Shown here piece by piece: positions 9,148-26,769 of a stretch of 32,161 nt of DNA. How positions within the stretch are numbered: the first letter of the stretch is position 1; every line of letters begins with the position of its first letter. Both the position numbers and the translations under genes were made by a program. The DNA comes from Mucilaginibacter arboris (GTDB lineage: Bacteria; Bacteroidota; Bacteroidia; Sphingobacteriales; Sphingobacteriaceae): NCBI RefSeq assembly GCF_009754915.1, contig NZ_WPIK01000025.1, positions 1 through 32,161 on the forward strand, given 5' to 3'. The notes beneath the pieces are model-generated. The model made no database searches and was not told where the DNA came from. It worked only from the letters and a program-made list of their open reading frames with translations.

Positions 9148-9297
9148 TGCATCTTTTAATTAGGCTAAACCATTTCTGACCTACAATTTCTTTTCCAAAA
9201 ATGATTAGGTTATCCATTTATACTTGTATTTATTAGTTTGCCGCTTGTGCTTGCGTTGCCGCTTGGATTATTATAAATACCGATGATGCTTCTTTTA
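9148..9297 (-). repeat. Two motif copies in the 9103-9413 gap
   Basis: A one-mismatch copy, TGCATCTTTTA (9148-9158), and an exact TGCTTCTTTTA (9287-9297, in GATGATGCTTCTTTTATG). Apart from these and the promoter candidate at 9352, nothing is seen in this gap. Confidence 0.65.
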
Positions 9298-9351
9298 TGT
9301 TTGGAATTTTTATTGGAGGATGGAATCCGAAGTTAAGTGCAGCAAGTAAAA

Positions 9352-9413: not shown

Positions 9414-9620
9414 ATGCTAGTAGAAAGAACAACCAATAATGAAATTGTGATTACAGTATCACCTTATGTTGATAGTTTTGGAATTCAACGGTTGATTGAT
9501 TATGCAAAATACTTAGAGGCAACAGCACACAGTAAAGCAAAACAAGCCGATGCAGATGCATTAGCGGAGAAGATTAATGCTTCTTGGTGGGAAAATAACA
9601 AGAACCGTTTTTTACAATGA
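9414..9620 (+). CDS. Antitoxin of a PIN-type toxin-antitoxin pair
   Basis: A 68-residue protein that opens with a short beta segment (EIVITVSPYVD) and continues as a helix (IQRLIDYAKYLEATAHSKAKQ), ending in WWENNKNRFLQ. This resembles the small antitoxins, with a trailing ALAEKINASWW region, that precede PIN-domain genes in Bacteroidota. Function is inferred from the four-base ATGA overlap with the PIN gene at 9617. Because the toxin partner is truncated, this antitoxin may now be an orphan in practice. Confidence 0.75.
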   Translation: MLVERTTNNEIVITVSPYVDSFGIQRLIDYAKYLEATAHSKAKQADADALAEKINASWWENNKNRFLQ

Positions 9621-10003
9621 AATTAATAGTTGATGCTAACATTGTTTTTAGCGCAATATTAAATACTAACGGTAAAATTGGAGATTTGCTGATTAATTCT
9701 AATAAGTACTTTACTTTTATTGCACCAGATTTTTTGAGAATAGAAATTAAAAAACATCATTTAAAAATTATTAAAATTTCTGGATTGACATTAGAACAAG
9801 TTCAGGAGGCAGAATTTCAAATTTATAAAGATATTACATTTATTTCCGAAGAACAAATCAAAGTATCAACCTGGATTGCAGCAGAAAAATTAGTTTTTGA
9901 TATTGACCCCAAAGACATTACTTATGGTTTCCTCGAAATTTTCTGCAATAACCTTTTCTATTTCATCAGCTTCTTCTTTCGACCAAATACCAGACATTGC
10001 TGA
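9617..10003 (+). pseudogene. PIN-domain toxin, 3' end lost and replaced by antisense DNA
   Basis: The first 104 or so residues are a PIN-domain RNase toxin: MKLIVDANIVFSAIL with acidic D6, a middle segment APDFLRIEIKKHH, and DIDPKDITY, which carries the conserved acidic residues. Directly after DITY (about 9928) the frame runs into the antisense strand of a separate antitoxin relic. The tail GFLEIFCNNLFYFISFFF is therefore chance coding. The normal end of the fold, including the last conserved acidic position (usually a GD-K motif), is missing, so ribonuclease activity is doubtful. The ORF is 128 residues, short by some 15-25 real residues. Confidence 0.75.
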
Positions 10004-10130
10004 GAACAGATTTGTCGAATCATCTTCCTGTAATGCAGTTTTTTTTAAGTACAGCTTCTAAAGCAGAAAGTGTATGCTCATTATCAATTTTGAGCACTTC
10101 TTCAATTAAATGTAATTTACGTGCATCAAA
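9930..10130 (-). pseudogene. Frameshifted antitoxin relic, antisense to the PIN gene tail
   Basis: The minus strand from 10130 reads FDARKLHLIEEVLKIDNEHT, then LSALEAVLKK. One extra base in an eight-base A/T run (10039-10046) shifts the frame. It then continues as TALQEDDSTNLF, SAMSGIWSKEEADEIEKV and IAENFEE. This looks like the helical antitoxins that accompany toxin genes in Bacteroidota. There is no start codon, there is a frameshift, and its 3' end abuts the cut PIN gene near 9928. It is the remnant of a second toxin-antitoxin pair whose toxin is gone. Confidence 0.65.
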
Positions 10131-10223
10131 ATATCATAATCAAATCTAACTAATGTTTTATAAATTTCAATAGCAAGGTATTAGTTATAATTTGAATTGA
10201 ATTTTATCTATTTAAAGCTATCC

Positions 10224-10961
10224 CTATTCCTTCCCATTCAACAAAAATTCAATCAAATCATCCGTATTCCTAAAAAAATCTTTGTAAACATTAAACAATT
10301 CCGTTTCATGATACTTTTTTATCTGAATACCTTCTTCACTAAACTCATAAATAATAGCATTTGGATAGGCAATTAAAATTGGCGAATGCGTGGCAATAAC
10401 AAACTGGGAATTTTGCTTTACCAATTCATCGATGCGCAGCAACATGGCCATTTGCCTTGTTGGCGATAATGCTGCTTCCGGCTCATCCAGAATGTACAAT
10501 CCATTACCAAAAAATCTGTTCATAAAAAGTGCCCAAAAGGATTCTCCATGAGATTGTTCGTGTAAAGAAGTGCCTCCGTAGGAATCAATAATACCGTCCC
10601 CTATTTTTTCAATCTCTGTTGCAACGTTATAAAAACTCTCACTTCTTAAAAAAAAGCCATCAGTATGCTTGTTCACACCTCTTGAAGTACGCATGTGATG
10701 ATGCAATTCGGAGTGAGAGGCCCTTGTATTGAAATTAAAATTGGAACTACCACCTTCCGGGTTAAATCCCGAAAGCACTGCAATGGCTTCAATTAAAGTG
10801 GATTTGCCTGTCCCGTTCTCTCCTACAAAGAAAGTTACTTCCTGATGAAACTCAAGATGATCGGTAGTTTTGAAAAAAGGAAGATTGAAAGGATAACTGT
10901 CGAAATTTTCTATATTCTGTTTGTTAAAATAGAGTTCTATCAGTTCGACTTTTGAAATCAT
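10224..10961 (-). CDS. AAA-family ATPase of the SMC/ABC-like predicted-ATPase type
   Basis: A 245-residue stand-alone ATPase. Walker A is GENGTGKST at residues 47-55, Walker B is LYILDEPEAAL, and a switch His lies in FVIATHSPILIAYP. The late ABC-type signature region is around SHGESFWALFMNRFF. This is the architecture of small predicted ATPases (COG3910-like), distant relatives of SMC and OLD proteins, with no nuclease domain of its own. Some relatives work in phage defence with a separate effector, but no convincing partner lies directly beside it. The flanks hold a toxin-antitoxin relic and a displaced xylA end, so it sits in an accessory zone. Confidence 0.85.
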   Translation of the reverse strand: MISKVELIELYFNKQNIENFDSYPFNLPFFKTTDHLEFHQEVTFFVGENGTGKSTLIEAIAVLSGFNPEGGSSNFNFNTRASHSELHHHMRTSRGVNKHTDGFFLRSESFYNVATEIEKIGDGIIDSYGGTSLHEQSHGESFWALFMNRFFGNGLYILDEPEAALSPTRQMAMLLRIDELVKQNSQFVIATHSPILIAYPNAIIYEFSEEGIQIKKYHETELFNVYKDFFRNTDDLIEFLLNGKE

Positions 10962-11020
10962 CTTTTATAATATCAGTTTAAGCTTTGCCGGTTAGTTATT
11001 TGGCGAGGAGTTTAAAAAGC

Positions 11021-11155
11021 AATTATAAGGTTGTTTAAACGACTTGGAAATAATAAAATTTTATTTGTTGTTCCTGGCTCCATTTTATCCCCATAAAAGA
11101 AGCATCTGACTAAAGCAGACAAGAAAGAAAATAAGTTTAAACAACTTCAATTATA
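11021..11155. repeat. Small element with inverted ends around a motif copy
   Basis: GGTTGTTTAAAC near 11029-11040 and GTTTAAACAAC at 11135-11145 are inverted (11 bases exact). They bracket an exact TAAAAGAAGCA at 11094-11104. The block from the motif through AAGTTTAAACA resembles 6783-6823. It may be a tiny non-autonomous element. Confidence 0.45.
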
Positions 11156-11428
11156 ACAAAAGAAGCACCCAATTTTCACGGATGCTTCTTTTATCACCTA
11201 AAAATTGATATTATATATAATCGTTAATTAAATTTTCCAAGTATTCCTGTTTGCCGCTGATGGTTGCTGGTTCTCCGTTTTCTGCAGCGTAGTTGCGCAG
11301 GTCTTCTAAAGATAATTTACCTTCTTCAAACTCCTTGCCTTTTCCACTGTCAAAAGAAGCATAACGCTCTTCTCGTACTTTTTTGTAATCTGATTTTTGC
11401 AGGATGTTATCCGCAGTAATCAAAGCAC
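11151..11428 (-). pseudogene. Displaced 3' end of xylA with its terminator
   Basis: This minus-strand segment encodes the last 69 or so residues of xylose isomerase ([20 protein letters not shown] through ENLINDYI) plus the terminator hairpin. It is a direct repeat of 13871-14152. Homology begins at TTATA (11151) and ends exactly at CAAAGCAC (11428). I count seven base differences over about 205 coding bases, all silent, plus a small change at the very C-terminus (NDYI versus NRYI). The open frame of 70 residues beginning at 11423 is not an independent gene; it is the cut-off tail. Confidence 0.9.
11158..11192 (-). terminator. Terminator copy behind the displaced xylA end
   Basis: Two inverted motif copies (AAAAGAAGCACCC 11158-11170 and GGATGCTTCTTTT 11180-11192) form a 13-pair stem, with one G-U pair when read on the minus strand. 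The loop is nine bases and TTTTG follows. Confidence 0.7.
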
Positions 11429-11484
11429 ATAATACGTTTTGTTAAAAAGAATTTTCAGGTTTTAGAAATTTGTCCTAAATTTAC

Positions 11485-11496
11485 AGACAGTTGTCT
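11485..11496. promoter_or_regulatory. Possible operator of the ParS/RES pair
   Basis: AGACAGTTGTCT, an inverted repeat with five-base arms, lies 15 bases before the antitoxin ATG. Autorepression by Xre-type antitoxins is common, but this assignment rests on symmetry and position only. Confidence 0.3.
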
Positions 11497-11510
11497 AATT
11501 TATATTTTTT

Positions 11511-12011
11511 ATGACTTATTTAGAAAAAGATATTACCAATAAACTTGATAAAGAAGTTGCCTCAATAATTAAGCGTTCTGGTTTTGATAAGCAATTAACA
11601 TCATCGATAAAGCATCTAACCTATTCAGACTTATTTTTAAATAAAATGCTTATTATCCAGGTAATTCGAGAAGGGGTTCCTTATTCTTTTTTTAGTTTAA
11701 TCCAACATTATACACCTTTTAGCGAAAATGATTGGGCGAAGTTTTTGGATATATCAACTAAGTCTTTACAACGCTATAAACAAACATCAAAAAAATTTAA
11801 ACCAACACAGTCAGAAAAAATTATGGAGATGGCGGAAGTTACCAATGTTGGATTAGATGTTTTTGGAGAAATGGAGAAATTTAAACTCTGGTTAGATACA
11901 CCTAATTTTGCATTAGGAAATATGAGGCCGATTGAATTACTTAACGATTCTTATGGTAAAGAAATGGTAATTGGAGAACTTACCCGGATAAACTATGGTA
12001 TTTTAGTTTGA
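11511..12011 (+). CDS. Xre/MbcA/ParS-type antitoxin
   Basis: A 166-residue antitoxin. Residues about 60-110 form a helical Xre-like domain (FSENDWAKFLDISTKSLQRY). The C-terminal toxin-binding (MbcA/ParS/Xre) domain is clear: VGLDVFGEMEKFKLWLDTP, then FALGNMRPIELL and GELTRINYGILV. It neutralises the RES toxin next to it and probably represses the pair. The stop TGA overlaps the next ATG by one base (TGATG), so translation is coupled. The pair is the first cargo beyond the displaced xylA end. Confidence 0.92.
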   Translation: MTYLEKDITNKLDKEVASIIKRSGFDKQLTSSIKHLTYSDLFLNKMLIIQVIREGVPYSFFSLIQHYTPFSENDWAKFLDISTKSLQRYKQTSKKFKPTQSEKIMEMAEVTNVGLDVFGEMEKFKLWLDTPNFALGNMRPIELLNDSYGKEMVIGELTRINYGILV

Positions 12012-12469
12012 TGGAAGTTTTTAGGTTATCCAGAAAAAAATTTGCAACTGATTTATCCGGAAAAGGTTCAGCCTTAAAAGGTGCCAGATGGAATTCTGTT
12101 GGTGTAGAACTGATTTATACTGCGGGAAACAGATCACTGGCGATGGCAGAAGTTGCAGTACACTTTACGTTAGCAACATTACCGAGTGATTATGTAATGA
12201 TGGCTGTATTTATACCGGATGATATATCTTTGGTTAGACTTAATATTTCTGATTTGCCGATAGATTGGAATATGTTTCCTCATCCAGCATTAACCCAATC
12301 AATCGGAGATAAGTTTGTAGCAGACAATAAATATTGTATTCTTCAAATTCCATCAGCTGTAACTTTTGGAGATTATAATTTTTTGATAAATCCAAATCAC
12401 CCTGATTTTTTAAATATTAAAATTATAGAAACTGTTGATTTCCCTTTCGATAAAAGGGTATTTAGGTGA
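12011..12469 (+). CDS. RES-domain toxin (NAD+-degrading family)
   Basis: A 152-residue protein of the RES family, whose studied members deplete cellular NAD+. The family's Arg-Glu-Ser pattern is present: the Arg within LKGARWNSVGVELIYTAGNR, the Glu within SLAMAEVAVHF, and the Ser within QIPSAVTFGDYNFLINPNHPDF. The ATG at 12011 overlaps the antitoxin stop; an in-frame TTG one codon earlier is unlikely. Length is normal and no lesion is visible, so this is probably a working toxin held by its ParS-type partner. It would also help retain the inserted segment. Confidence 0.92.
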   Translation: MEVFRLSRKKFATDLSGKGSALKGARWNSVGVELIYTAGNRSLAMAEVAVHFTLATLPSDYVMMAVFIPDDISLVRLNISDLPIDWNMFPHPALTQSIGDKFVADNKYCILQIPSAVTFGDYNFLINPNHPDFLNIKIIETVDFPFDKRVFR

Positions 12470-12509
12470 AGTTTCAAATTCTGATACTTCTTTTACAACT
12501 TAAAATTCA

Positions 12510-12532
12510 GGATAATAACCTACTAATTATCC
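12510..12532. terminator. Weak bidirectional terminator candidate
   Basis: GGATAAT (12510-12516) and ATTATCC (12526-12532) form a seven-pair stem with a nine-base loop between the converging RES and HNH genes. A near-copy of the iterated motif (TACTTCTTTTA) lies at 12485-12495. Confidence 0.35.
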
Positions 12533-12549
12533 CAAAGTTTTAATGCACT

Positions 12550-13803
12550 TTAAATTTTATTTACTCTACGAATTATAGTTTGAATTGCTGTAATCTGATA
12601 AAGCTTATTGGTTGGTAATAACTTTATAAAAAGCATTTCATCTAAGATAAAATCTGTTATTATAGTATTAGTTGTGTCTCCTTTCGGTATTTTTTCGAGT
12701 TGAGGCTGCTCTAATTTTAATTCGATATTAGAATATTGAATCAATTCAAGACTATTATAAATAGGAACTTTTTCGTTAATTTTATAAAAATCAAATTCTG
12801 GATGATTTTGTAATTTATTAAAAGCCTCAAGTGCAGAATTATCAGGAAACAAGTATTGGAAGTTATATTCTACTTGAGTATACGTTCTTCTGATCAGCTC
12901 ATTACTGTTTATTATCTCGCATTTATAAGACGTAGTATCATTTTTAAGTATTATCAAATCATTTTTTAAATAACTTTTTTTACTCAATTGTATTCCAATA
13001 GAAAAGGTATTAAAAATATTTACTTGACATATTAATCCAAGTGACTTAGCGTCCATTAATATTACATAATGATTGTTATTTTCAAAGTCTATTAAATGCG
13101 ACAAAGGTTTCAGTATTTTTTTATCAAATCCATTACCTATAAAAATTATATCTGATTTCATTTTTTGTATATCAGCATTGAATAGTATCTCGGATATTTT
13201 TACTGCTAATTCATCATGAAAATATTGGGGGATTTGATCTACAGCAAATTCATAAGCAATTTTTAATAGTGCAATTTTGAAATCTACTATATCTATAGTA
13301 ATTTTAGATTCAAGCCATGGTTCTTCTATAGTTTCTTCGATTTGATTTTCAAAACTAATCTTTGATCTATCTAAATTTCTCATTTTTAATATTTTGTCTA
13401 TAATTCCATCTTTTAAGTGCAGGTCTTTTTTGTCAATACTAAATGAAAAATTACTTTGTGGATAATCTGACTTTAATTCTGGTACAAACGGTAATAATCT
13501 TAAAATAAACTTTCCATCTTTATTTAAATCAAATGTAGCCTTTCGGCCAGGTTCATTTTTTAATGTTTGTACTCCTGCAAAAGGATTGGGAATTCTTCCA
13601 GATTTCCCTTTAATATTCAGTTCATATCGTTTAAATTCAATAAACTTATGACTTGTAAGTTTACTGTCTATCTCAGCTCCCATTTTAGAATTACAATCTT
13701 CACAAACTGTAAATATATGGTAGTAACCTTTTATAGAATCAGGAATTACATGCTCATCATTAAATTTAATTTTTTCTTTTCTACAGATTATACATTTTCG
13801 CAT
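12550..13803 (-). CDS. HNH-type protein with a long unknown C-terminal region
   Basis: A 417-residue protein. Its first 40 residues form an HNH endonuclease-like zinc fold: C4-x2-C7, then E17-H18 in DEHVIPDSIKG, then C34-x2-C37-N38. This is the CxxC...EHVIP...CxxCN pattern of HNH_5-like nucleases. The remaining 375 or so residues have no family I recognise and are rich in K, I, N and D, with a hydrophobic helix segment around VDFKIALLKIAYEFAVDQ. The gene is very AT-rich compared with xylA next to it, which supports transfer. It lies inside the segment bracketed by xylA repeats. A role as a defence nuclease is plausible but unproven. Confidence 0.75.
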   Translation of the reverse strand: MRKCIICRKEKIKFNDEHVIPDSIKGYYHIFTVCEDCNSKMGAEIDSKLTSHKFIEFKRYELNIKGKSGRIPNPFAGVQTLKNEPGRKATFDLNKDGKFILRLLPFVPELKSDYPQSNFSFSIDKKDLHLKDGIIDKILKMRNLDRSKISFENQIEETIEEPWLESKITIDIVDFKIALLKIAYEFAVDQIPQYFHDELAVKISEILFNADIQKMKSDIIFIGNGFDKKILKPLSHLIDFENNNHYVILMDAKSLGLICQVNIFNTFSIGIQLSKKSYLKNDLIILKNDTTSYKCEIINSNELIRRTYTQVEYNFQYLFPDNSALEAFNKLQNHPEFDFYKINEKVPIYNSLELIQYSNIELKLEQPQLEKIPKGDTTNTIITDFILDEMLFIKLLPTNKLYQITAIQTIIRRVNKI

Positions 13804-13870
13804 AAGTTTTTCTTTTACACTAAATATAATTTAAATCAGAACTGAAGTAAACGATATTTAAAAAATTAGA

Positions 13871-14152
13871 TTATAAAAAAAGAAGCACCCGATTTTCACC
13901 GGATGCTTCTTTTATCACCTAAAAATCGTTAACCTTAGATATAACGGTTAATTAAATTTTCCAAGTATTCCTGTTTGCCGCTGATGGTTGCAGGTTCTCC
14001 GTTTTCTGCAGCGTAGTTGCGCAGGTCTTCCAAAGATAATTTACCTTCTTCAAACTCCTTGCCTTTTCCACTATCAAAAGAAGCATAACGCTCTTCGCGT
14101 ACTTTTTTGTAATCAGATTTTTGTAGGATGTTATCTGCAGTAATCAAAGCAC
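13871..14152 (-). repeat. xylA-proximal copy of the direct repeat
   Basis: The 3' end of intact xylA plus its terminator, repeated in the same orientation at 11151-11428. The two copies bracket 11429-13870 (2,442 bases). Confidence 0.9.
13878..13913 (-). terminator. Terminator of the xylB-xylA operon, built from inverted motif copies
   Basis: AAAAGAAGCACCC (13878-13890) and GGATGCTTCTTTT (13901-13913) make a 13-pair stem with one G-U pair on the minus strand and a ten-base loop. Seven T then follow in the minus-strand reading. It lies 22 bases after the xylA stop. Confidence 0.8.
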
Positions 14153-15266
14153 GGGCAAAAATGTCCATGCCGCCAACATGTGCATAAAACAAATCAGCCG
14201 GATCAGTAGAATTTCTTCTGATCTTGGCATCAAAGTTTACACCGCCGTATTTAATGCCGCCGCCTTCCAAAATAATTAACATCGATTCTGTCAGCTCATT
14301 AATATCATTCGGAAACTGGTCTGTATCCCAGCCATTTTGCATATCACCACGGTTGGCATCGATAGAACCTAATAAACCGTTATCAACAGCAACCTGCAGC
14401 TCATGCTGGAAAGTATGTCCGGCTAAAGTAGCGTGGTTTACTTCCAGGTTTAAAGAAAAATCATTCAGCAAATCATATTTTTGCAAGAAACCGAACACTG
14501 TTGCCGCATCAAAATCATATTGGTGTTTAGTTGGTTCTGCAGGTTTTGGCTCGATAAAGAAGCTTCCTTTAAAACCGTTTTTACGGGCATAATCTTTTGC
14601 TGCATGTAAGAATTTTGCAAAATGCTCCTGCTCGCGTTTCATGTTAGTGTTCAGCAAGGTCATGTAACCTTCGCGGCCGCCCCAAAAAGTATAATTTTCT
14701 CCGCCTAAAGCAATGGTTGCATCCAAAGCACATTTTACTTGTGCGGCACCGTGGGTTAAAACGTGAAAATCCGGATTGGTGGAAGCACCGTTCATGTAAC
14801 GCTTGTGCGAAAACAAGTTGGCAGTTCCCCAAAGCAATTTTACACCGCTTTTTGCTTGTTTTTCTTTCGCATATTCTACCAAAGTTTGTAAACGGTGCTC
14901 GTTTTCGGCTACATTATCGCCGTAATCAACTACGTCCACATCGTGGAAACAGTAGTAAGGCAAGTTCATTTTGGTGAAGAATTCGAACGCTGCATCCATT
15001 TTATCTTTCGCACGTTCTATCGGATCTGCTTTTGCATCCCACGGAAAAATGTGCGTAGCGCCACCAAAAGGATCTGAACCATTACCAACGAAAGAATGCC
15101 AGTACGCACCGGCAAATTTAAAATGCTCTTTCATGGTTTTGCCGGCAACAACGCGGTTTTCGTCGTACCAGCGAAAAGCTAAAGGATTATCAGATTCCAG
15201 GCCTTCAAACTTAACCTGGCCTAAGCCTTTAAAAAACTCTTTTTCTCCTGTTATTATATTTCCCAT
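13935..15266 (-). CDS. xylA: Xylose isomerase
   Basis: A 443-residue cytoplasmic enzyme that converts D-xylose to D-xylulose using divalent metals. The catalytic His region is [13 protein letters not shown]. The metal-binding Glu lies in [19 protein letters not shown], and further ligands are in [18 protein letters not shown] and [20 protein letters not shown]. The length matches the class II enzymes of Bacteroidota and Firmicutes. It follows xylB by 41 bases and shares its promoter. The 3' end and terminator are duplicated at 11151-11428. A motif copy with one mismatch (14075-14085) encodes YASFD. Confidence 0.97.
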
Positions 15267-16789: not shown

Positions 16790-16858
16790 GTTTATCTATA
16801 TAATTTACAGCCGGGAAATCAGGTCTATTTGTGTTGCAACGAAAATAATAAAAATATT

Positions 16859-16870
16859 GCAATCGATTGC
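16859..16870. promoter_or_regulatory. LacI-type operator candidate
   Basis: GCAATCGATTGC is a perfect 12-base palindrome with the central CG typical of LacI/GalR-family operators. It sits between divergent xylB and the LacI-type gene, 33 bases before the latter's ATG. A second, shorter palindrome, GTTGCAAC, lies at 16833-16840. Confidence 0.65.
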
Positions 16871-16902
16871 CTAAATTTTTATTTATTATTTTGACAACTT
16901 TT

Positions 16903-17943
16903 ATGAAGAACCAGAAACGAACAACCATTCATGATATAGCCAGGAAACTAAATATTGCTGCATCATCCGTTTCACGGGCTTTAAACAACAGCAGTAAAGT
17001 TAGTGCTTCTACCAAAGAACTGATCTTAAAAACAGCGAAAGAGCTTAATTATAAGCAAAATTTTCTCGCCCAAAACCTGCGTAAAGGCCAGAACCAAACT
17101 ATTGGTGTGGTGGTTCCGCGCATTAATCAGAACTTTTTTTCTAACATTATTGCCGGGCTGGAAGAAGTAACTTACAAAAACGGCTACAATCTGGTTATTT
17201 GCCAGTCGAACGAATCGCACGAGCGCGAAGTGCAATGCGTAGAAACGTTGATTCACCAGCATGTAAGTTGTATTGTAATTTCTATTTCTGTGGAGCATAC
17301 CAATGACGATCATTTAAAAAACGTATTGGCACAAGGGATACAGTTAATACAGTTTGACCGTGTTGCACAGGACCTGGAAACTTTTAAAGTGATTAACGAT
17401 AATGAGCAGGCTGCAACTGAAGCAGTTTCCCACATGATCAACCAGGGTTACCGCAGGATTGCTTTGCTGGAAGGGCCGCAAAACCTGGCTATTTTCAGGC
17501 AGCGGAAAGCGGGCTATTTGCGTGCGCTGGAACAACATCGGGTCCCGGTTGTAGAAGAACTGATCATTAAAAATGCATGGACAAAAGAGCTTGGCGCAAA
17601 AGCAACGCGTAAACTGCTGAGTTTACCAAAGCCTCCTGATGCGGTTTTTGCTTCTACTTCTGATTTTTCTGCTTTAGGTGTTTTAGAAGTGGCCAACAGT
17701 ATGGGTTTTAAAGTTCCGGATGTTTTGGGTGTTTGCGGTTATTCTAATGAGGCTTTTAGTGAAATTACTACGCCTTCGATTACAACTGTTGATCAATACA
17801 GCAAAAAAATGGGCAAAGCCATTGCCGATTTATATTTTGAGGAGATAAAAGAAGCACCAAACAGTACGGTTTATAAAACAGTCAGCATCAAACCAAAACT
17901 AATTGTAAGGTCATCAACCCAAAGAAAAAACATTCCTGGTTGA
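16903..17943 (+). CDS. LacI-family regulator, probably of xylose genes
   Basis: A 346-residue repressor with an N-terminal LacI helix-turn-helix (TIHDIARKLNIAASSVSRAL) and hinge, then a periplasmic-binding-like sugar sensor (IGVVVPRINQNFFSNIIAGL through TTPSITTVDQYSKKMGKA). The ATG at 16903 gives MKNQKRTTIHDIARKL, the usual start; an upstream in-frame ATG at 16867 overlaps the operator and is rejected. Divergence from xylB suggests xylose-linked control through the 16859-16870 palindrome, with autoregulation likely. An exact motif copy (17846-17856) encodes IKEA near the C-terminus. Confidence 0.9.
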   Translation: MKNQKRTTIHDIARKLNIAASSVSRALNNSSKVSASTKELILKTAKELNYKQNFLAQNLRKGQNQTIGVVVPRINQNFFSNIIAGLEEVTYKNGYNLVICQSNESHEREVQCVETLIHQHVSCIVISISVEHTNDDHLKNVLAQGIQLIQFDRVAQDLETFKVINDNEQAATEAVSHMINQGYRRIALLEGPQNLAIFRQRKAGYLRALEQHRVPVVEELIIKNAWTKELGAKATRKLLSLPKPPDAVFASTSDFSALGVLEVANSMGFKVPDVLGVCGYSNEAFSEITTPSITTVDQYSKKMGKAIADLYFEEIKEAPNSTVYKTVSIKPKLIVRSSTQRKNIPG

Positions 17944-17949
17944 TGCCAA

Positions 17950-17960
17950 TGCTTCTTTTA
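17950..17960 (-). repeat. Iterated 11-mer just after the LacI-type gene
   Basis: Exact TGCTTCTTTTA seven bases past the stop codon, followed by CCCCTATAAAATAAAT, similar to other gene-end copies. Confidence 0.8.
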
Positions 17961-18023
17961 CCCCTATAAAATAAATACATTGTTGAAAAAGTAGTTGCTT
18001 TACAACGGTTCAAGCGGTTTCCT

Positions 18024-18044
18024 GCTGATGGGGCATCCATCAGC
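18024..18044 (+). promoter_or_regulatory. Leader hairpin before the YitT gene
   Basis: GCTGATGG and CCATCAGC form a perfect eight-pair stem with a GGCAT loop, 22 bases before the ATG. There is no T run after it, so a terminator is unlikely; its role is unknown. Confidence 0.4.
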
Positions 18045-18065
18045 ATTAATAATAAATATTGGGGC

Positions 18066-18938
18066 ATGAAGACAAAAAGCAAACTTAAAACCACATTGAA
18101 AAATGCTGTATTGATCCTGTTGGGGATATTTTTAGCTGCGATAGGTTTAAAAGGCTTTTTACTGTCCAGCCATTTTATAGACGGGGGCGTAACCGGCATA
18201 TCCATGCTGCTGGCAGACATTACGGGTATCCCCATTTCCATCCTGATCTTTGTGATCAATATCCCTTTCCTGATCTTAGGTTACCGGAGGCTGGGCAATG
18301 TATTTGCATTAAAGAGCACTTTGGCCATTGCCGGACTTTCGCTTTGTCTGGCCTTTATCGATTTTCCCGATGTTACGCCTGATAAATTGCTGACGGCCGT
18401 TTTTGGGGGGATGTTTATCGGCGTGGGGATAGGCTTGGCCATCCGCAGTGGTGCGGTGCTGGACGGTACCGAAATTGCAGCCTTACTGGTAAGTAAAAAA
18501 AACCAATTGCTGAAAGTAAGCGACGTGATATTGGTTTTAAATGTGCTGGTTTTTTCCGCTGCAGCGTTTTTTTTAGGCATTGAATCGGCTTTGTACTCCA
18601 TCCTCACCTATATGGCAGCTTCCAAAATGATCGATTTTATTTTGAACGGCATAGAGCAATATACCGGTATCACAGTTATATCGGCCAAAAGTGAGATCAT
18701 CCGAAGGGTGATTACCCAGAATATGGGCCGTGGCGTAACTATTTACCAGGGCAAAAGCGGTTACGGGAAAGACGGGCAGATCAATGACCCGCGTGACATT
18801 ATTTTTACGGTGGCTACCCGGCTTGAAATACCCCTGCTAAAACAACAGATCCTGAAGATCGACCCTACTGCCTTTATCGTTCAGCAAAGTATTGACGATA
18901 CCACAGGAGGTTTGCTTAAAAGAAAAGGCCTGCATTAA
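18066..18938 (+). CDS. YitT-family membrane protein with DUF2179 domain
   Basis: A 290-residue inner-membrane protein. The N-terminal 200 residues hold five or six membrane helices of the YitT (DUF161) type, including VLILLGIFLAAIGLKGFLL, the conserved HFIDGGVTGISMLLA and GIGLAIRSGAVLDGTEIAAL. The C-terminal DUF2179 domain follows (GRGVTIYQGKSGYGKDGQ, then KIDPTAFIVQQ). The family's substrate is unknown. Codon use is more GC-rich than that of neighbouring genes. It stands alone between motif copies at 17950 and 19035. Confidence 0.9.
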   Translation: MKTKSKLKTTLKNAVLILLGIFLAAIGLKGFLLSSHFIDGGVTGISMLLADITGIPISILIFVINIPFLILGYRRLGNVFALKSTLAIAGLSLCLAFIDFPDVTPDKLLTAVFGGMFIGVGIGLAIRSGAVLDGTEIAALLVSKKNQLLKVSDVILVLNVLVFSAAAFFLGIESALYSILTYMAASKMIDFILNGIEQYTGITVISAKSEIIRRVITQNMGRGVTIYQGKSGYGKDGQINDPRDIIFTVATRLEIPLLKQQILKIDPTAFIVQQSIDDTTGGLLKRKGLH

Positions 18939-19276
18939 GTTTTTTATGCAAATGCCTGTCCTTCTGTTGCCTCATTAAAAATGCTGCTGTGTTGAATAAT
19001 CCATTTACTGGTTGCCAACATCATTTTGAAGGGTTAAAAGAAGCATTTTCTTTTTTAAGTTGAAGAGCGGTCATTCTATTGCGGAACCAAAATACGAACA
19101 ACATAATTGCATTTTTTACTGAGCGCTTCTTTTATCAGCCTAAAAAAATGATGGTAAAAGAAGCATTGGATTCGCTCCTGCCGCCTAAAATTATCCTTTC
19201 AAAACCCCGAAAGTATTTTATCCTAACTTATATTCTTTTTAAAACGTAGAAACATGCTGAATAATATTTATTTATC
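18939..19276. repeat. Intergenic region with three motif copies
   Basis: An exact copy lies at 19035-19045. An inverted pair, CGCTTCTTTTA at 19124-19134 (one mismatch) and TAAAAGAAGCA at 19155-19165, can fold into a hairpin with a 20-base loop. No gene is seen. The promoter of the LruC gene should lie in 19170-19260 but no clear -33/-7 pair stands out. Confidence 0.7.
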
Positions 19277-21415
19277 ATGAAAAAAATCTTTTACCTTTTA
19301 GGAATTGTAAGCATTTCTGCTATAACTTCCTGTAAGAAAGAGCATTCGGGAATTGATGAAAGCAACATCAACAAGATTGCGCCAAATGGCTTCAATTATC
19401 AAACGTCTAAAGACGTAAGCCTGAACCTGCAACTCCTAACCAATGGAGACCAGCCAATTGCCGGTGCGGTGGTTAGTGTTTATACTACGGCAAGCACAGA
19501 TGCAGGCAGTGCTGTTTTTAAAGGTATAACGGACCAAAACGGAAATTTAAAAGCAACTGTGAACGTTGCTGCTTCTTTTACCCAGTTAATTATTGATCCG
19601 TCTTATGTTGGGTTAATGCACAATGTGAGGGCAAATATCAACAATAACACCATTACAGCAACCATTGGCGGCAAAAGTGGCTACAGCGGTGATATTGTAC
19701 CGGATGCAATTAATAATAATCAGGGGCCTGGCGGTTCAACCGGTGTTTTAGGAACGCTTGGTTTAACTTCTACAGATTATGTTTATCCTTCGCCTTACAC
19801 TACTACTGCCGGCGCCGTATTAAACACAACTGCTTATCCGTTGGCTTTAGGAAGGCCGGTGTATCTCGAAACCACTTCTGATGTGATCGATGCTTCTTTA
19901 CTGTCTTATGTAAATGCTTCGCTGCCAGAATCACAATCGGTAAGTAATATCCATCCGGAGTATCTTTCCAGTTCGGCAGTTTCCAACATCAATGTTACTG
20001 CAACTTCCGATGTTTGGATTACTTATGTTTCAGAAGGTGCAAGCAATCAAAACACCCTGGCTTATTATACTTATAATACCAATAACCCGCCAACTGCTAC
20101 TTCCGGAGGTACAAATGCAAAAGGTATTGATAAAGTTACCATGGTGTTACCAAATGCTTCTGGCGTTGGTTCTGGCGGCGGTTTAAAATCGGGCGATAAA
20201 GTTAAACTGGGTACTTTTAGTGCCGGAACAACTATCGCTTTTGTGCTGCTTCAAAATTCATGGACCGGCAGCGGCGTTAACTTAAGCACGCAGAAGTTTT
20301 ATTCGGATAGCCAGCTAAATCCGGAAAGCACAAGTGCATTAAAAAAACACTCTGTGGTTTTGTATGATGACGTACACAAACTTTATCTGTTTGGTTTTGA
20401 AGATATGAACCGGCAAACAGCATCAACAAACCCAGGCGGCGGTGCTTCAGACAATGATTTTAACGATATTGTTTTTTATGCCACTGCAAACCCTATAACT
20501 GGCATATCCAATACCGGCATACCGGTTATTGACAAGGCAGGCGACAGCGATGGTGATGGCGTATTAGATGTTTATGATGCCTTTCCGACTGATCCTACAC
20601 GCGCTTATATTTACAGCTTCCCATCACCGACAACTTTTGCACAGCTTGCTTTTGAAGACAACTGGCCATCAAAAGGTGATTATGACATGAATGATCTGGT
20701 TGTAAACTACCGCTACACTTTTATTGCCAATGCGCAAACTCAAATTGTTACCATGCAAACAGATTTTACGGTGGCTGCTTCCGGCGCTTCCTTTAAAAAT
20801 GGGTTTGGTTTACAGTTGCCTTTTGATGCTTCTACCGTAAAATCCGTAACCGGACAAAAGACCATCAGTAATTACATCCAGTTTGCAAGTAACGGTGTAG
20901 AAGCCGGACAAACCAAGGCTGTAATTATTCCTTTTGATAACCATGAAGCTATCATTCATAACCCTGATTACTCTTTCTTTATCAATACACTTAATGCAAA
21001 AGATAAAGTACAAAGCGTTACCTCTTCTGTATTGGTAACCTTTAATTCGCCGGTTTCAAGTTCTGGTTTAAGTATAGCATCCTTTAATCCGTTCCTGATC
21101 AGCAATTTAAGAAGAGGTTACGAAATCCATTTACCTGGTTATGCAGCAACAGATAAAGCTAACGCAGCCTTGTTTGGCACTACAGATGATGCTTCGTTTG
21201 TAGCAGGCAGAAAATCTTATACTTCGAGAGAAAACTGGCCTTGGGCGCTTAGCTTTAATGATACTTCTTTTAACTATCCGTTAGAAACCATAAACATTAC
21301 TGCCGCTTATCCGCATTTTACAGACTGGGCAGGTTCCGGAGGTACCAGTTTTGTTGATTGGTACAGCAACTTAACAACCGGTTACCGGGTTAATGCTAAT
21401 TTGTATTTGAAATAG
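19277..21415 (+). CDS. LruC-domain surface lipoprotein
   Basis: A 712-residue lipoprotein. The signal ends in the lipobox SAITSC, with C19 as the lipidated residue. A carboxypeptidase-regulatory-like beta domain follows at about residues 45-130 (LNLQLLTNGDQPIAGAVVSV). A DUF4114-like segment (DNDFNDIVFYATANP) and a calcium-binding DSDGDGVLDVYDAFPTDP repeat lead into the LruC region, which has the repeated pattern FEDNWPSKGDYDMNDLVVNY. LruC proteins are found across Bacteroidota and other marine or soil bacteria; their role is unknown. It is probably exposed at the cell surface. Motif copies at 19510 (sister), 19570 and 21262 (one mismatch) lie inside the gene. Confidence 0.9.
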   Translation: MKKIFYLLGIVSISAITSCKKEHSGIDESNINKIAPNGFNYQTSKDVSLNLQLLTNGDQPIAGAVVSVYTTASTDAGSAVFKGITDQNGNLKATVNVAASFTQLIIDPSYVGLMHNVRANINNNTITATIGGKSGYSGDIVPDAINNNQGPGGSTGVLGTLGLTSTDYVYPSPYTTTAGAVLNTTAYPLALGRPVYLETTSDVIDASLLSYVNASLPESQSVSNIHPEYLSSSAVSNINVTATSDVWITYVSEGASNQNTLAYYTYNTNNPPTATSGGTNAKGIDKVTMVLPNASGVGSGGGLKSGDKVKLGTFSAGTTIAFVLLQNSWTGSGVNLSTQKFYSDSQLNPESTSALKKHSVVLYDDVHKLYLFGFEDMNRQTASTNPGGGASDNDFNDIVFYATANPITGISNTGIPVIDKAGDSDGDGVLDVYDAFPTDPTRAYIYSFPSPTTFAQLAFEDNWPSKGDYDMNDLVVNYRYTFIANAQTQIVTMQTDFTVAASGASFKNGFGLQLPFDASTVKSVTGQKTISNYIQFASNGVEAGQTKAVIIPFDNHEAIIHNPDYSFFINTLNAKDKVQSVTSSVLVTFNSPVSSSGLSIASFNPFLISNLRRGYEIHLPGYAATDKANAALFGTTDDASFVAGRKSYTSRENWPWALSFNDTSFNYPLETINITAAYPHFTDWAGSGGTSFVDWYSNLTTGYRVNANLYLK

Positions 21416-21443
21416 ATTTTAAGCTGATAAAAACACCATCCAT

Positions 21444-21482
21444 AAAATGTCCCTTTCAGAAAAACTGAAAGGGACATTTTTT
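21444..21482. terminator. Strong bidirectional terminator
   Basis: AAAATGTCCCTTTCAG (21444-21459) and its exact complement (21465-21480) form a 16-pair stem with a five-A loop. Flanking A and T runs serve both the LruC gene and the converging oxidoreductase. Confidence 0.9.
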
Positions 21483-21502
21483 ATGATGAGAACTTAACCC
21501 TG

Positions 21503-22483
21503 TTATTCCTTTTTTTGAGTAAAAGTATCCATCAACTCCATAGAATAAATTGCATCCTGAACAGAACAAGGATTTGGGCTTCGCCCCAAAAAATATTGAA
21601 CTACTTTTGCTATCATCGGTTGCTGCACATGTGCTAAAGGTTCAAAATTCAGTTTTTCTACCTGTCCGTTTTGAGTTAAAGTGATTTCCGAACTAAATAC
21701 CGGGAAACTTATTTTTCCTTCAGAACCAATAATTGTACAAATATCCTGCTGCCCGCCTTCTGCAACTGTAAAACACCAGGTTCCTGTAAAAACTACTTTA
21801 TTTTTGAACAGGATATTTCCGGTTACTAAATCATCTGCTTCGTAAAAACCTCCCTGGTTTAACCCAAAGCCTGATGCTTCTTTTACCTCACCAAAAAAAT
21901 AAACCATTAAATCTAACTGGTGCGGTGCAAGGTCATGAAAAAGGCCGCCACCGGAAATAACCGGATCAACACGCCAGTTTTTTTCCGAACTGGCAATCAG
22001 GTTTGATTTTGGCGGTTGCAGCATTTGCAGATCAACAAAACGGACCTCGCCTATTGCTTTACTTTCCAACAGTTCCTTCACCTTTAAAAACACAGGCTGC
22101 TGCCTGCGGTAATGTGCAACAGAAACCTTTTGCTGATATTTTTTTGAAGCCTCCAAAATTCTTCTGGCAGAAGCAGCCGAAAGCGAAATGGGTTTTTCTA
22201 CATAAACCGGTTTCCCGGCTGCCATTGCTTTAACCGCATATTCTTCATGTTGCAATGGCGGCGTGGCAATATAAATGGCGTTTATCTCAGGGTCGTTAAT
22301 CAGTTCATCAGCCTTGCTGTACCATTTCGGCACCTGATGCCTTTTTGCATAATCCGCTGCTTTTGCCGCATCGCGGCGCATTACGGCTACCAGTTCAGAA
22401 CCAGCAACCTTGTTAAATGCCGGTCCGCTTTTTTTCTCGGTCACATCGCCGCAGCCAATAATGCCCCATTTTATTTTCTCCAT
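21503..22483 (-). CDS. Gfo/Idh/MocA-family oxidoreductase
   Basis: A 326-residue NAD(P)-dependent enzyme of the glucose-fructose oxidoreductase and inositol dehydrogenase type. The Rossmann start is WGIIGCGDVTEKKSGPAF. The catalytic-site EKP lies in AAGKPVYVEKPISL, and the C-terminal domain contains GGGLFHDLAPHQLDLMVYFFG with its conserved DLAPHQLD. It probably acts on a sugar or cyclitol, but the substrate cannot be read from sequence. It lies 60 bases downstream-facing from nothing on its own strand, so it likely has its own promoter. An exact motif copy (21875-21885) encodes VKEAS in a surface-loop position. Confidence 0.92.
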   Translation of the reverse strand: MEKIKWGIIGCGDVTEKKSGPAFNKVAGSELVAVMRRDAAKAADYAKRHQVPKWYSKADELINDPEINAIYIATPPLQHEEYAVKAMAAGKPVYVEKPISLSAASARRILEASKKYQQKVSVAHYRRQQPVFLKVKELLESKAIGEVRFVDLQMLQPPKSNLIASSEKNWRVDPVISGGGLFHDLAPHQLDLMVYFFGEVKEASGFGLNQGGFYEADDLVTGNILFKNKVVFTGTWCFTVAEGGQQDICTIIGSEGKISFPVFSSEITLTQNGQVEKLNFEPLAHVQQPMIAKVVQYFLGRSPNPCSVQDAIYSMELMDTFTQKKE

Positions 22484-24115: not shown

Positions 24116-24342
24116 TTATCAGTTGGTCCAAATTATACAGGTTTAATAGGCAGCAAAATTATTAAAATGAATTGTATTTCAATTTTTACAATTAATTACT
24201 GGTTTTTCTGCTGTAAAACAGGCTTGTACAGGATGGTTCTGTTTGTTTTTTAACGAGATTTATAGCCCGGTTACCAGCCAGAAAAGCCTTTTTCTTAAAG
24301 AAATAATTAGACCTAAACCGTTAAATTTACGTGCCAACTGAT

Positions 24343-26769
24343 ATGCCTCAAAACTTCAATTTCCGTTTTATTTTATGCTGTGCTTTTTGTTTTTTGCTCG
24401 ATGCTTCTTTTGCACAACAAAAACCGGTGATGCCAGGGGCCGCTAAACCTGCAGGGTTTAAACTGTTTTTTGAGAAAGTTTACCTGCAGACCGACCGTAA
24501 CTTGTATGCTTCCGGCGATAACCTCTGGTTTAAAGCTTATCTGGTCAACGGCCTCAGCACTTCGTTAACTAACACAAGTAACAATTTAGATGTAGAATTA
24601 ATTTCTCCTGAAGCAACAATTATCAGCCGCGAAATCATCAGGATGGATAACGGTTTAGGCAACGGCGATTTTAAATTGAGCGACACCATTCCCGATGGCA
24701 ATTACCGCCTCCGCGCCTACACCAACTGGATGCGTAATTTTGGCGATAATTTTGTTTTTGAGAAAGCAATTGCCATTCATCATATTCCCGGTTCTGCAAC
24801 CGGTAAAAGTGTGGCAACTCACAAAAAAACACCGGTAAAAACAGTATTGGCAAATGCAGGAAACGGCACCATCCGTTTTTTTCCGGAAGGCGGTTTGTTG
24901 GTCCAGGATGTTCAAAGTATTATTGGTTTTAAGGCGGAAGACGACAACAGCAACGGGTTGAAAGTGAGCGGGAGCATCATTTCTTCCAAAGGCGATACGG
25001 TTAGCCGTTTTCAAAGTGCAGCTTCGGGTATGGGCAGTTTTGCTTTTTTGCCGGCTGCGGGTTTGCAATATCAGGTAAAAGGCGTTTTTAGTAACGGACA
25101 TTCTTTCACTGAATCTTTGCCTGCTGCTTTGCCAAAGGGTTTTTCGCTGCATTTAAATGTTGCAGATACGGCAACTGTTACCGCTACCATCAGTACCAAT
25201 GCCGCTACTTTAGCAGATATGCAGGGAAAAGAACTCATCCTGGCCGGAAAACATGGAACACAAGTTTGCTTTGGCACAAAAATTAAGATCAGCGGTTTGG
25301 AAACAACTGTTAAAGTGGCCAAAAACAGTTTTCCTGCCGGTGTTGCTGCCATTACTTTATATGATGAACAGTTGCACCCAACCGCCGAGCGATTAATTTA
25401 TGTTGAAGGAAACGATAACATTACGCTTTCAATTTTATCTGATAAAAGAAGCTATCAACCTAAAGATGGCGTAACGCTTCATCTCAAAACAACTAATCAA
25501 AACCAGCAACCGGTTTCAGCTAGTTTATCTTTGGCTGCTGTTGATGCCGGTATTTTGCCGGAAGAGCAGCGCAACATTCAGTCTTATTTCCTTTTAGAAT
25601 CTGAAGTGAGAGGAAAAATTGAAAACGCTGCACAGTATTTTGACAAAAACAACCCGAACCGTTACAAACAGTTAGATGCCTTGCTGTTAACGCAGGGCTG
25701 GCGCAATTTTATTTGGAAACGTTTGGCAGATACTGCTTTAAAGATTAGCTATTTGCCTGAACCTGGTTTTACCATTACCGGCCGCTTGCGCGACCGTTTG
25801 GCAGACAAACCTCAAGCCAACATGAACATTACTTTGTTTGCTGCCGGCGCAAAAGATGGTAAACTTTTTACAACCAGAACTGCTTCCGATGGCAAGTATT
25901 TTCTGGATGGTATTCAATTTTATGGCCCGCAAACTATTCGTTTATCTGCCCGCGATGAAAAAGGTAAAAAAACCGGGATGATTTTATTAGATACCATTTC
26001 CGGTAGAGCAATGGCAGTTCAGCCTGTTCGGGAACCGACACCAACAAGTCCGCAACAGTTAATGGCTTTTAATCAGGCAATAGAAAAACGGGAACCTGCG
26101 CATTTAAGTATGAATGATACTTTGCAACTAAAAGGTATTACCGTAACAGAAGCGGCACAAACCGTTACTTTAAGAGACCAAACCGTACAAACTTTTGGCT
26201 ATCCCGATTACAATTTCGACATTACTAAAGCTGATTACACTTATAAAGATCTGGAGGATTTTTTGGTGCATAAAGTTCCCGGCGCACAAAGTAATCCGGA
26301 TACTTCTGAGGGAATTGTTTTTTATTCTCAGGGAAAAAAAATATTGCCGCGTTTTATTGTGCAGCGGCAGGAAGACGTTTTTGAACGGTTGGATTATTAT
26401 TCTTTAACGATGGATGTAATTACAAGGGTTTCTGTGCGGCATTTAGTTGGAATGGGCGGAACAGATGTTTTTCTGATCTATCTAACATTGAAACCGGAAG
26501 CCTTTCAGAAAAAGGAATTTTACCTGATCAACGCTGATGTAAACGGCTATTATGAAGCACGCGAATTTTATACCCCTAAAAACAGTATTGGCCAGCCAGA
26601 TCTGCGCACTACCCTTTTCTGGAAACCTAATATTGTTACTGATGCTAATGGCGAGGCAAGCGTGCATTTTACCAATTCTGCACAAAAAACAACTATCAGG
26701 ATTGTTGCCGAAGGTATTACAGATAAAGGTATTGCCGTAGCCGGAAAAGCCGAATATCCGGTGCAATAA
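24343..26769 (+). CDS. MG2/plug-like surface protein, first of a tandem pair
   Basis: An exported protein of about 808 residues. ATG at 24343 gives MPQNFNFRFILCCAFCFLLD, a signal peptide cut after SFA; a GTG at 24331 is the alternative. An alpha-2-macroglobulin MG2-like domain comes first (FFEKVYLQTDRNLYASGDNL, then WFKAYLVNG, then DGNYRLRAYTNWMRNFGD). Middle beta domains follow, with TQGWRNFIWKRL and a carboxypeptidase-like repeat. A TonB-plug-like stretch is next (TFGYPDYNFDITKADYTYKD). The end carries FYTPKNSIGQPDLRTTLFW then VTDANGEASVHFTN, typical of this Bacteroidota family. Function is unknown; an envelope role in uptake or protection is likely. Motif near-copies lie at 24402, 24836 and 25443. 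Confidence 0.85.
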   Translation: MPQNFNFRFILCCAFCFLLDASFAQQKPVMPGAAKPAGFKLFFEKVYLQTDRNLYASGDNLWFKAYLVNGLSTSLTNTSNNLDVELISPEATIISREIIRMDNGLGNGDFKLSDTIPDGNYRLRAYTNWMRNFGDNFVFEKAIAIHHIPGSATGKSVATHKKTPVKTVLANAGNGTIRFFPEGGLLVQDVQSIIGFKAEDDNSNGLKVSGSIISSKGDTVSRFQSAASGMGSFAFLPAAGLQYQVKGVFSNGHSFTESLPAALPKGFSLHLNVADTATVTATISTNAATLADMQGKELILAGKHGTQVCFGTKIKISGLETTVKVAKNSFPAGVAAITLYDEQLHPTAERLIYVEGNDNITLSILSDKRSYQPKDGVTLHLKTTNQNQQPVSASLSLAAVDAGILPEEQRNIQSYFLLESEVRGKIENAAQYFDKNNPNRYKQLDALLLTQGWRNFIWKRLADTALKISYLPEPGFTITGRLRDRLADKPQANMNITLFAAGAKDGKLFTTRTASDGKYFLDGIQFYGPQTIRLSARDEKGKKTGMILLDTISGRAMAVQPVREPTPTSPQQLMAFNQAIEKREPAHLSMNDTLQLKGITVTEAAQTVTLRDQTVQTFGYPDYNFDITKADYTYKDLEDFLVHKVPGAQSNPDTSEGIVFYSQGKKILPRFIVQRQEDVFERLDYYSLTMDVITRVSVRHLVGMGGTDVFLIYLTLKPEAFQKKEFYLINADVNGYYEAREFYTPKNSIGQPDLRTTLFWKPNIVTDANGEASVHFTNSAQKTTIRIVAEGITDKGIAVAGKAEYPVQ

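Follow-up and report, generated by a model that had tools for sequence, protein, structure and literature searches.

The analysed stretch of Mucilaginibacter arboris DNA (32,161 nt, hereafter the window) carries an intact gene for xylose isomerase, xylA, and, separated from it by an HNH endonuclease-like gene and a RES-Xre pair, a second copy of the end of that gene (Table 1). The displaced tail repeats the last 72 codons of xylA, approximately the last sixth of the gene. The duplicated block contains this gene end and the hairpin that follows it, and starts abruptly within codon 372. By local alignment the two blocks were identical at 275 of 292 ungapped columns, post-stop hairpin included, making a direct repeat of 94% identity in which the longest identical run is 45 nt. 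The displaced frame is a remnant, with an in-frame stop codon a few codons before the start of the tail.

Table 1. Features of the xylA region in the window (positions are those of the window)
Feature	Position	Strand	Evidence or remark
AAA ATPase gene (AAA_15/AAA_21) past displaced tail	10224..10961	-	Pfam
Displaced repeat block, full extent	11136..11428	-	local alignment; pairs with 13857-14152
Terminator-like hairpin past displaced tail, inside duplicated block	11158..11193		hairpin by eye; motif at 11182
Displaced xylA tail, dead remnant, end of codon 372 to stop	11211..11428	-	protein match to residues 372-443 at 97%
Novel junction, xre upstream region joined to xylA codon 372	11429..11447		homology to G001 xre upstream region stops at 11445, to that of G002 at 11460
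Xre/ParS-type antitoxin gene	11511..12011	+	NF049845 121.5 bits, cut-off 90; Pfam
RES/ParT-type toxin gene	12008..12469	+	NF049844 169.3 bits, cut-off 110; Pfam
HNH_5 endonuclease-like gene, 417 aa, 26% GC	12550..13803	-	Pfam PF14279
Hairpin past intact xylA	13878..13914		hairpin by eye; motif at 13903
Intact xylA tail, probably imported allele	13935..14152	-	direction inferred from synteny
Intact xylA (xylose isomerase, 443 aa)	13935..15266	-	TIGR02630 664.1 bits, cut-off 533.25
12-mer TAAAAGAAGCAT, either strand	6433, 6512, 6576, 6641, 6783, 8802, 9286, 11094, 11182, 13903, 17949, 19035, 19155, 21874, 22510, 27320, 27893		

The RES-Xre (ParT-ParS) pair consists of adjacent antitoxin and toxin genes, both scoring above their family cut-offs. 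RES toxin matches numbered 6 in the window genome (G000), 8 in the congener G001 and 6 in the congener G002; each of the other 142 genomes of the family with a match had at most 4. For the HNH_5 protein no family match was found outside the HNH part. Near full-length relatives of it (38% and 34% identical) occurred in 2 of 374 other genomes of the phylum, relatives overall in 6 of 374, and the relatives found in 4 of 300 other genomes of the family were all partial. The idea that this gene is a homing element recognising xylA was set aside, its relatives being too rare for a test. The AAA ATPase gene, which we take to be a native neighbour of the displaced tail, had one weak match in G002 (E 6.9e-4) and none in G001. 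As a regular neighbour of xylA it was rejected, being absent from 83 xylA loci (80 named loci, G001 and two other genomes of the family). An Rfam search over the window gave no match at gathering scores.

Further features were noted on either side. Homology of a PIN_2-domain gene (9617-10003) to G002 ends at 9926, and the sequence past that point (9927-10223) appears by eye to be an antisense gene remnant; the stop in homology together with the remnant beyond it makes a second junction likely there. Past the PIN pair of G002, at L183 4583-4739, lies a further partial copy of the upstream region (9154-9310 in the window). On the other side of xylA, genes for a LacI-type regulator, a YitT-family protein and DUF4842/DUF4114 proteins (16791-21503) lie between xylB and a Gfo/Idh/MocA oxidoreductase gene; the latter two are directly adjacent in G001. 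The neighbouring plus-strand ORFs 24331-26769 and 26779-29367, which share a 300-nt stretch at 73% identity (24450-24749 and 26892-27191), are likely tandem paralogues.

Comparison of the two tails from the GCT of codon 373 to the stop revealed 10 differences in 216 nt, located in nine codons. Eight of these codon differences are silent (intact/displaced: GCA/GCG, CTA/CTG, TCT/TCA, CGC/CGA, GAT/GAC, TTG/TTA, CCT/CCA and ATC/ATA). An earlier, sequence-only reading of this DNA had listed seven silent differences; all seven are real, but the ATC/ATA pair in the last sense codon had been missed, and the repeat extends further than that reading had indicated. The single amino-acid change that it placed near the tail end was also found, an Arg/Asp replacement (CGT/GAT) that involves two nucleotides. 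Inspection by eye revealed neither a mosaic pattern between the two tails nor, in comparison with G001, a clear step in divergence along the gene that would mark a breakpoint within xylA.

We compared this pattern with random substitution. When 10 random substitutions were placed in the xylA tail, at most one amino-acid-changing codon resulted in 0, 0, 2 and 9 of 20,000 trials at transition weights of 1, 2, 4 and 8, respectively, so that the observed ratio of eight silent codons to one replacement codon has a P of at most 4.5e-4. Between the tails dS was 0.211 and dN 0.012. Assuming that at least half of the changes were neutral, the probability of finding at most one replacement in nine codons would be below 0.05; a smaller neutral share, recent in origin and up to about half, may be present. 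These data indicate that the divergence of the tails accumulated mostly under selection for a working protein, which argues against simple decay of a copy in place, as the sequence-only reading had held.

The same data bear on whether the xylA tail was duplicated within the genome and then decayed, an origin that we regard as highly improbable. It would agree with the tails being mutually closest relatives (see below) and with the presence in the displaced copy of one replacement and of small changes after the stop, but the random-substitution test rejects it as the main source of the differences. With four silent hits on the live branch, it would also predict about 20 on the dead one, as against the 10 observed on both branches together. 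Some decay of the displaced copy may nevertheless have occurred. The Asp at its third-last residue was not shared by any of 91 other tail rows; at this position these carried Arg (65), Gln (21), Lys (2), Asn (2) or Tyr (1). Note that these rows were not deduplicated and omit minus-strand loci, and that the single Tyr belongs to a tail one residue longer. Because Asp is absent from the other rows, the displaced copy may have begun decaying: the Arg/Asp difference is not an even polymorphism and, with the small changes right after the stop, may reflect mild decay of this copy.

The relationships of the tails were determined from a tree and from a DNA search. In a tree of 109 of the 111 tails collected (two exact duplicates were left out), the two tails of the window were sisters with support of 100/98. 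A search of 301 genomes of the family with the displaced tail returned the intact tail at 95% identity, followed by a match of 84% in the only congener with an xylA match, and then by one of 82%. The dS of 0.21 between the tails compares with 1.4-2.3 between tail and congener. The expectation of the sequence-only reading that an imported tail should group with another species was thus not borne out among the tails compared. Of the two conditions that it had named as refuting it, one applies, the tails being each other's closest relatives, and the other does not, the bias toward silent change being beyond chance. Its proposal that two working xylA lineages met holds, with both tails descending from one species or from sister species. 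The silent bias and the dS of 0.21 fit two lineages, and an old duplicate within the genome is a less likely source. Since the tails are mutually closest in both the tree and the search, the donor would have belonged to the same or a sister species; it is absent from the genomes compared. Relative to G001, the shared state was kept by the displaced copy at four silent codons and by the intact copy at two, with two undecided, yet the branch lengths in the tail tree were 0.044 for the displaced and 0.0091 for the intact tail, which speaks against a clear polarity. Two xylA alleles brought together by recombination provide the simplest account of these findings.

We also examined whether a second tail recurs at other loci. 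A convincing second tail was found at none of 81 other xylA loci, with flanks of up to 6 kb on each side for most; several of the 80 named loci lie on short contigs with less than 6 kb of flank. Second hits at L042 and L107 (protein, E of 3.9 and 7.4) and at L093 and L111 (DNA, 18-20 nt) were taken as noise. Among 40 RES loci, a direct repeat of at least 60 nt across the RES gene was found in the window only (0 of the 39 others), and this led us to reject recurrent mobility of RES-Xre by way of flanking gene tails; the same repeat test around xylA at 80 loci found four with unrelated repeats. Because no other xylA or RES locus shows the scar in the flanks examined, it looks like the result of one event rather than of a habit.

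These results also bear on the possibility that the genome once held two whole, working xylA copies (a duplicate or merodiploid), and that a deletion which began upstream of xre and reached codon 372 in the second copy then removed the front part of this copy and any intervening sequence. Such a history would explain the silent divergence with no import in the final step, and two full-length xylA genes are indeed present in five of the seven other genomes of the family with two tail hits (G183, G192, G202, G287 and G295). However, the second copies in those five genomes are on other contigs or megabases apart, a protein search found no second whole xylA in the window genome, and a DNA search found one xylA in G001. 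The lack of a convincing second tail in the sequence surrounding the other xylA loci also counts against it, and both a gain and a loss would be needed within one species. We consider this history unlikely.

The gene order in the congeners provides information on which of the tails was imported, a point on which the sequence-only reading took no position. The order in G001 is xylA, a gene for a 156-aa protein with no family match, RES, Xre and uxuA. In G002 Xre likewise adjoins uxuA, at which point the contig ends, and a DNA search found no xylA match in that genome. In the window genome uxuA follows a GH39 gene close to the end of a different contig, with no RES-Xre beside it. Given this synteny, a single event suffices if RES-Xre and the xylA tail arrived in one piece from a G001-like lineage, and the tail of the intact gene is therefore probably the import. 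The direction may also have been the reverse, with the displaced tail and the AAA gene imported and uxuA moved separately; RES-Xre is perhaps ancestral here because it is beside xylA in G001 as well. The position of the join can be placed between the start of the displaced tail at 11428 and the end at 11445 of the xre-upstream homology to G001. Around the join, comparison with the two congeners showed no homology to G001 in 11429-11444 and none to G002 in 11429-11459.

We propose, with a probability of roughly 0.6, that the displaced tail is the scar of a one-sided (homology-facilitated illegitimate) recombination between two alleles of the xylA locus. The incoming fragment, donated by a strain of the same species or of a sister species, would have carried the end of xylA, the HNH gene and the RES-Xre pair. 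One end of it would have crossed over homologously within xylA, consistent with the uninterrupted reading frame and the shared tail; the other end would have been joined to codon 372 of the recipient xylA, where no homology was found, by what was presumably an illegitimate join. Because the protein sequence encoded by the incoming tail is nearly that of the native one, xylA would have remained whole, while the native tail, its hairpin and the genes beyond them would have ended up 2.7 kb away. Entry by natural transformation seems plausible for such a fragment.

Recombination of this type (HFIR), with one homologous end, one illegitimate end and entry of a linear fragment, is described in sections of PMC3240628. 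The xylA scar resembles it in having one homologous end and, as proposed here, an illegitimate other end; it differs in that the described events were selected in the laboratory, whereas the xylA case is read from a natural scar. A second parallel comes from the type VI secretion (T6SS) clusters of Vibrio cholerae, for which passages of PMC5361080 report that incoming modules shift the old 3' end downstream, propose an HFIR-like mechanism and describe the process as rare. Those clusters contain displaced 3' ends of effectors as well as orphan immunity genes; at xylA, too, the old 3' part of the gene would have been shifted downstream. The V. cholerae modules, unlike xylA, involve different effectors and are repeated into arrays; at xylA the enzyme is the same and the event looks single.

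The arrangement could alternatively result from a site-specific integrative element that has its target in the 3' end of xylA and makes the gene whole again by supplying a tail of its own. Element e14 and phage 21 act in this way at icd of Escherichia coli, where the incomer is driven by an integrase and brings its own 3' end, so that the product of the housekeeping gene is kept. The anatomy would be the same as that seen here, an intact gene with a replaced tail and the displaced tail at the far end, and 16 identical nucleotides (GTGCTTTGATTACTGC) are present at the start of the block. However, Pfam analysis of the six genes between and beside the tails (9414 to 13803) revealed no integrase, Xre is next to uxuA in each congener and RES-Xre next to xylA in one of them, and the target is not recurrent in the examined flanks of the other xylA loci. 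By protein search, the seven other genomes of the family with two tail hits contained two full-length xylA genes (five genomes) or one (G129 and G167), and none contained a truncated one. The scar thus shares with icd the retention of the gene product by means of the incomer's 3' end and differs from it in the integrase, and we judge an integrative element quite unlikely.

A potential concern is that the contig might join two co-existing strains through an error of assembly. With the genome split into 83 contigs, one of which makes up the entire window, there would be room for such an error. Against this, inspection by eye of 11429-11447 and of the sequence flanking the intact tail revealed no long shared word by which an assembler might have been misled, and the listed contamination is 0.1. 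An artefact of this kind is very unlikely.

Both hairpins contain the 12-mer TAAAAGAAGCAT, which turned out to be abundant throughout the genome. There were 965 + 982 = 1,947 copies in the window genome, 520 + 598 in G001 and 1,059 + 1,055 in G002, compared with 2, 2 and 3 in three genomes of other genera. The reversed 12-mer, serving as a control, was found 0 + 1 times in the window genome and once or twice in each genome. The 991 kb of the 80 named xylA loci contained one copy and 505 kb of other loci of the family none, and the 12-mer is genus-specific among the genomes tried. In 397 kb there were 168 copies as against 0.32 expected. Predicted genes, which make up 88% of the sequence, held 63 of the 168 copies, with the other 105 intergenic; these genic shares are approximate, because gene calling relied on crude ORF picking (ATG, at least 100 aa).

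The sequence around the core gives some indication of what the motif is not. Conservation reaches to a T-tract whose start lies 13 bases upstream of the core and is slight further out, although G002 keeps a few more positions; the extended motif is close to AATTTTTnGnYGRTAAAAGAAGCATY. This limited extent argues against a transposon or REP element. The three most common one-letter variants of the core are transitions, and a sister form, TAAAAACAGYAT, exists. Only 20 neighbouring pairs of copies were less than 100 bp apart (in opposite orientation in 18), and that most copies are unpaired within this distance argues against a plain hairpin terminator. For the 105 intergenic copies the nearest gene end was a 3' end in 75; 29 copies were in convergent gaps, which account for 16% of the gap length, and 16 in divergent gaps, which account for 32%. 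This bias toward intergenic sequence and 3' ends would also fit a role in termination, and it weighs against a role in DNA uptake (see below).

The motif is conserved between species. Identical 12-mers were found at aligned orthologous places for 36 of 63 sites from G000 to G001 and for 20 of 31 from G000 to G002. The other directions gave 35 of 59, 14 of 23, 23 of 38 and 17 of 28, and shifted controls 0 to 7 of 20 to 64; only sites with aligned flanks were counted, and the six directions are not independent. In a previous form of this test the counts were 40 of 69 versus 6 of 85. This conservation suggests that the motif is maintained, and does not indicate for which function. Its density, strand balance, partly genic placement and conservation between species make it a candidate for an uptake-sequence-like motif or for some other genome-wide signal. 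DNA uptake signals have been described for the Neisseriaceae and Pasteurellaceae. For the Bacteroidota, passages of PMC7965970 mention only unproven, low-complexity candidate words, along with a preference of Riemerella columbina for its own DNA; no description of TAAAAGAAGCAT was found in the literature searched for such motifs in this phylum. We tentatively suggest, judging from the sequences compared, that the genus could have its own DNA uptake sequence, with approximately 1,100-2,100 core copies per genome, and that the xylA tails, each accompanied by the motif, could be a visible product of kin-to-kin transformation.

Taken alone, the scar documents gene exchange between close relatives in an unexceptional but clear form: a core enzyme was preserved, and a toxin-antitoxin pair and a rare HNH gene came to be its neighbours. 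Homologous recombination between the tails could delete the RES-Xre island and restore a single-tail xylA, and the toxin-antitoxin pair would be expected to select against such loss. The motif may be of greater importance than the scar, and is the lead to pursue. If it proves to be an uptake signal, bacteria of this genus would take up mainly the DNA of their kin; such a signal would represent an independent origin of this mechanism and would explain selective recombination within the genus.
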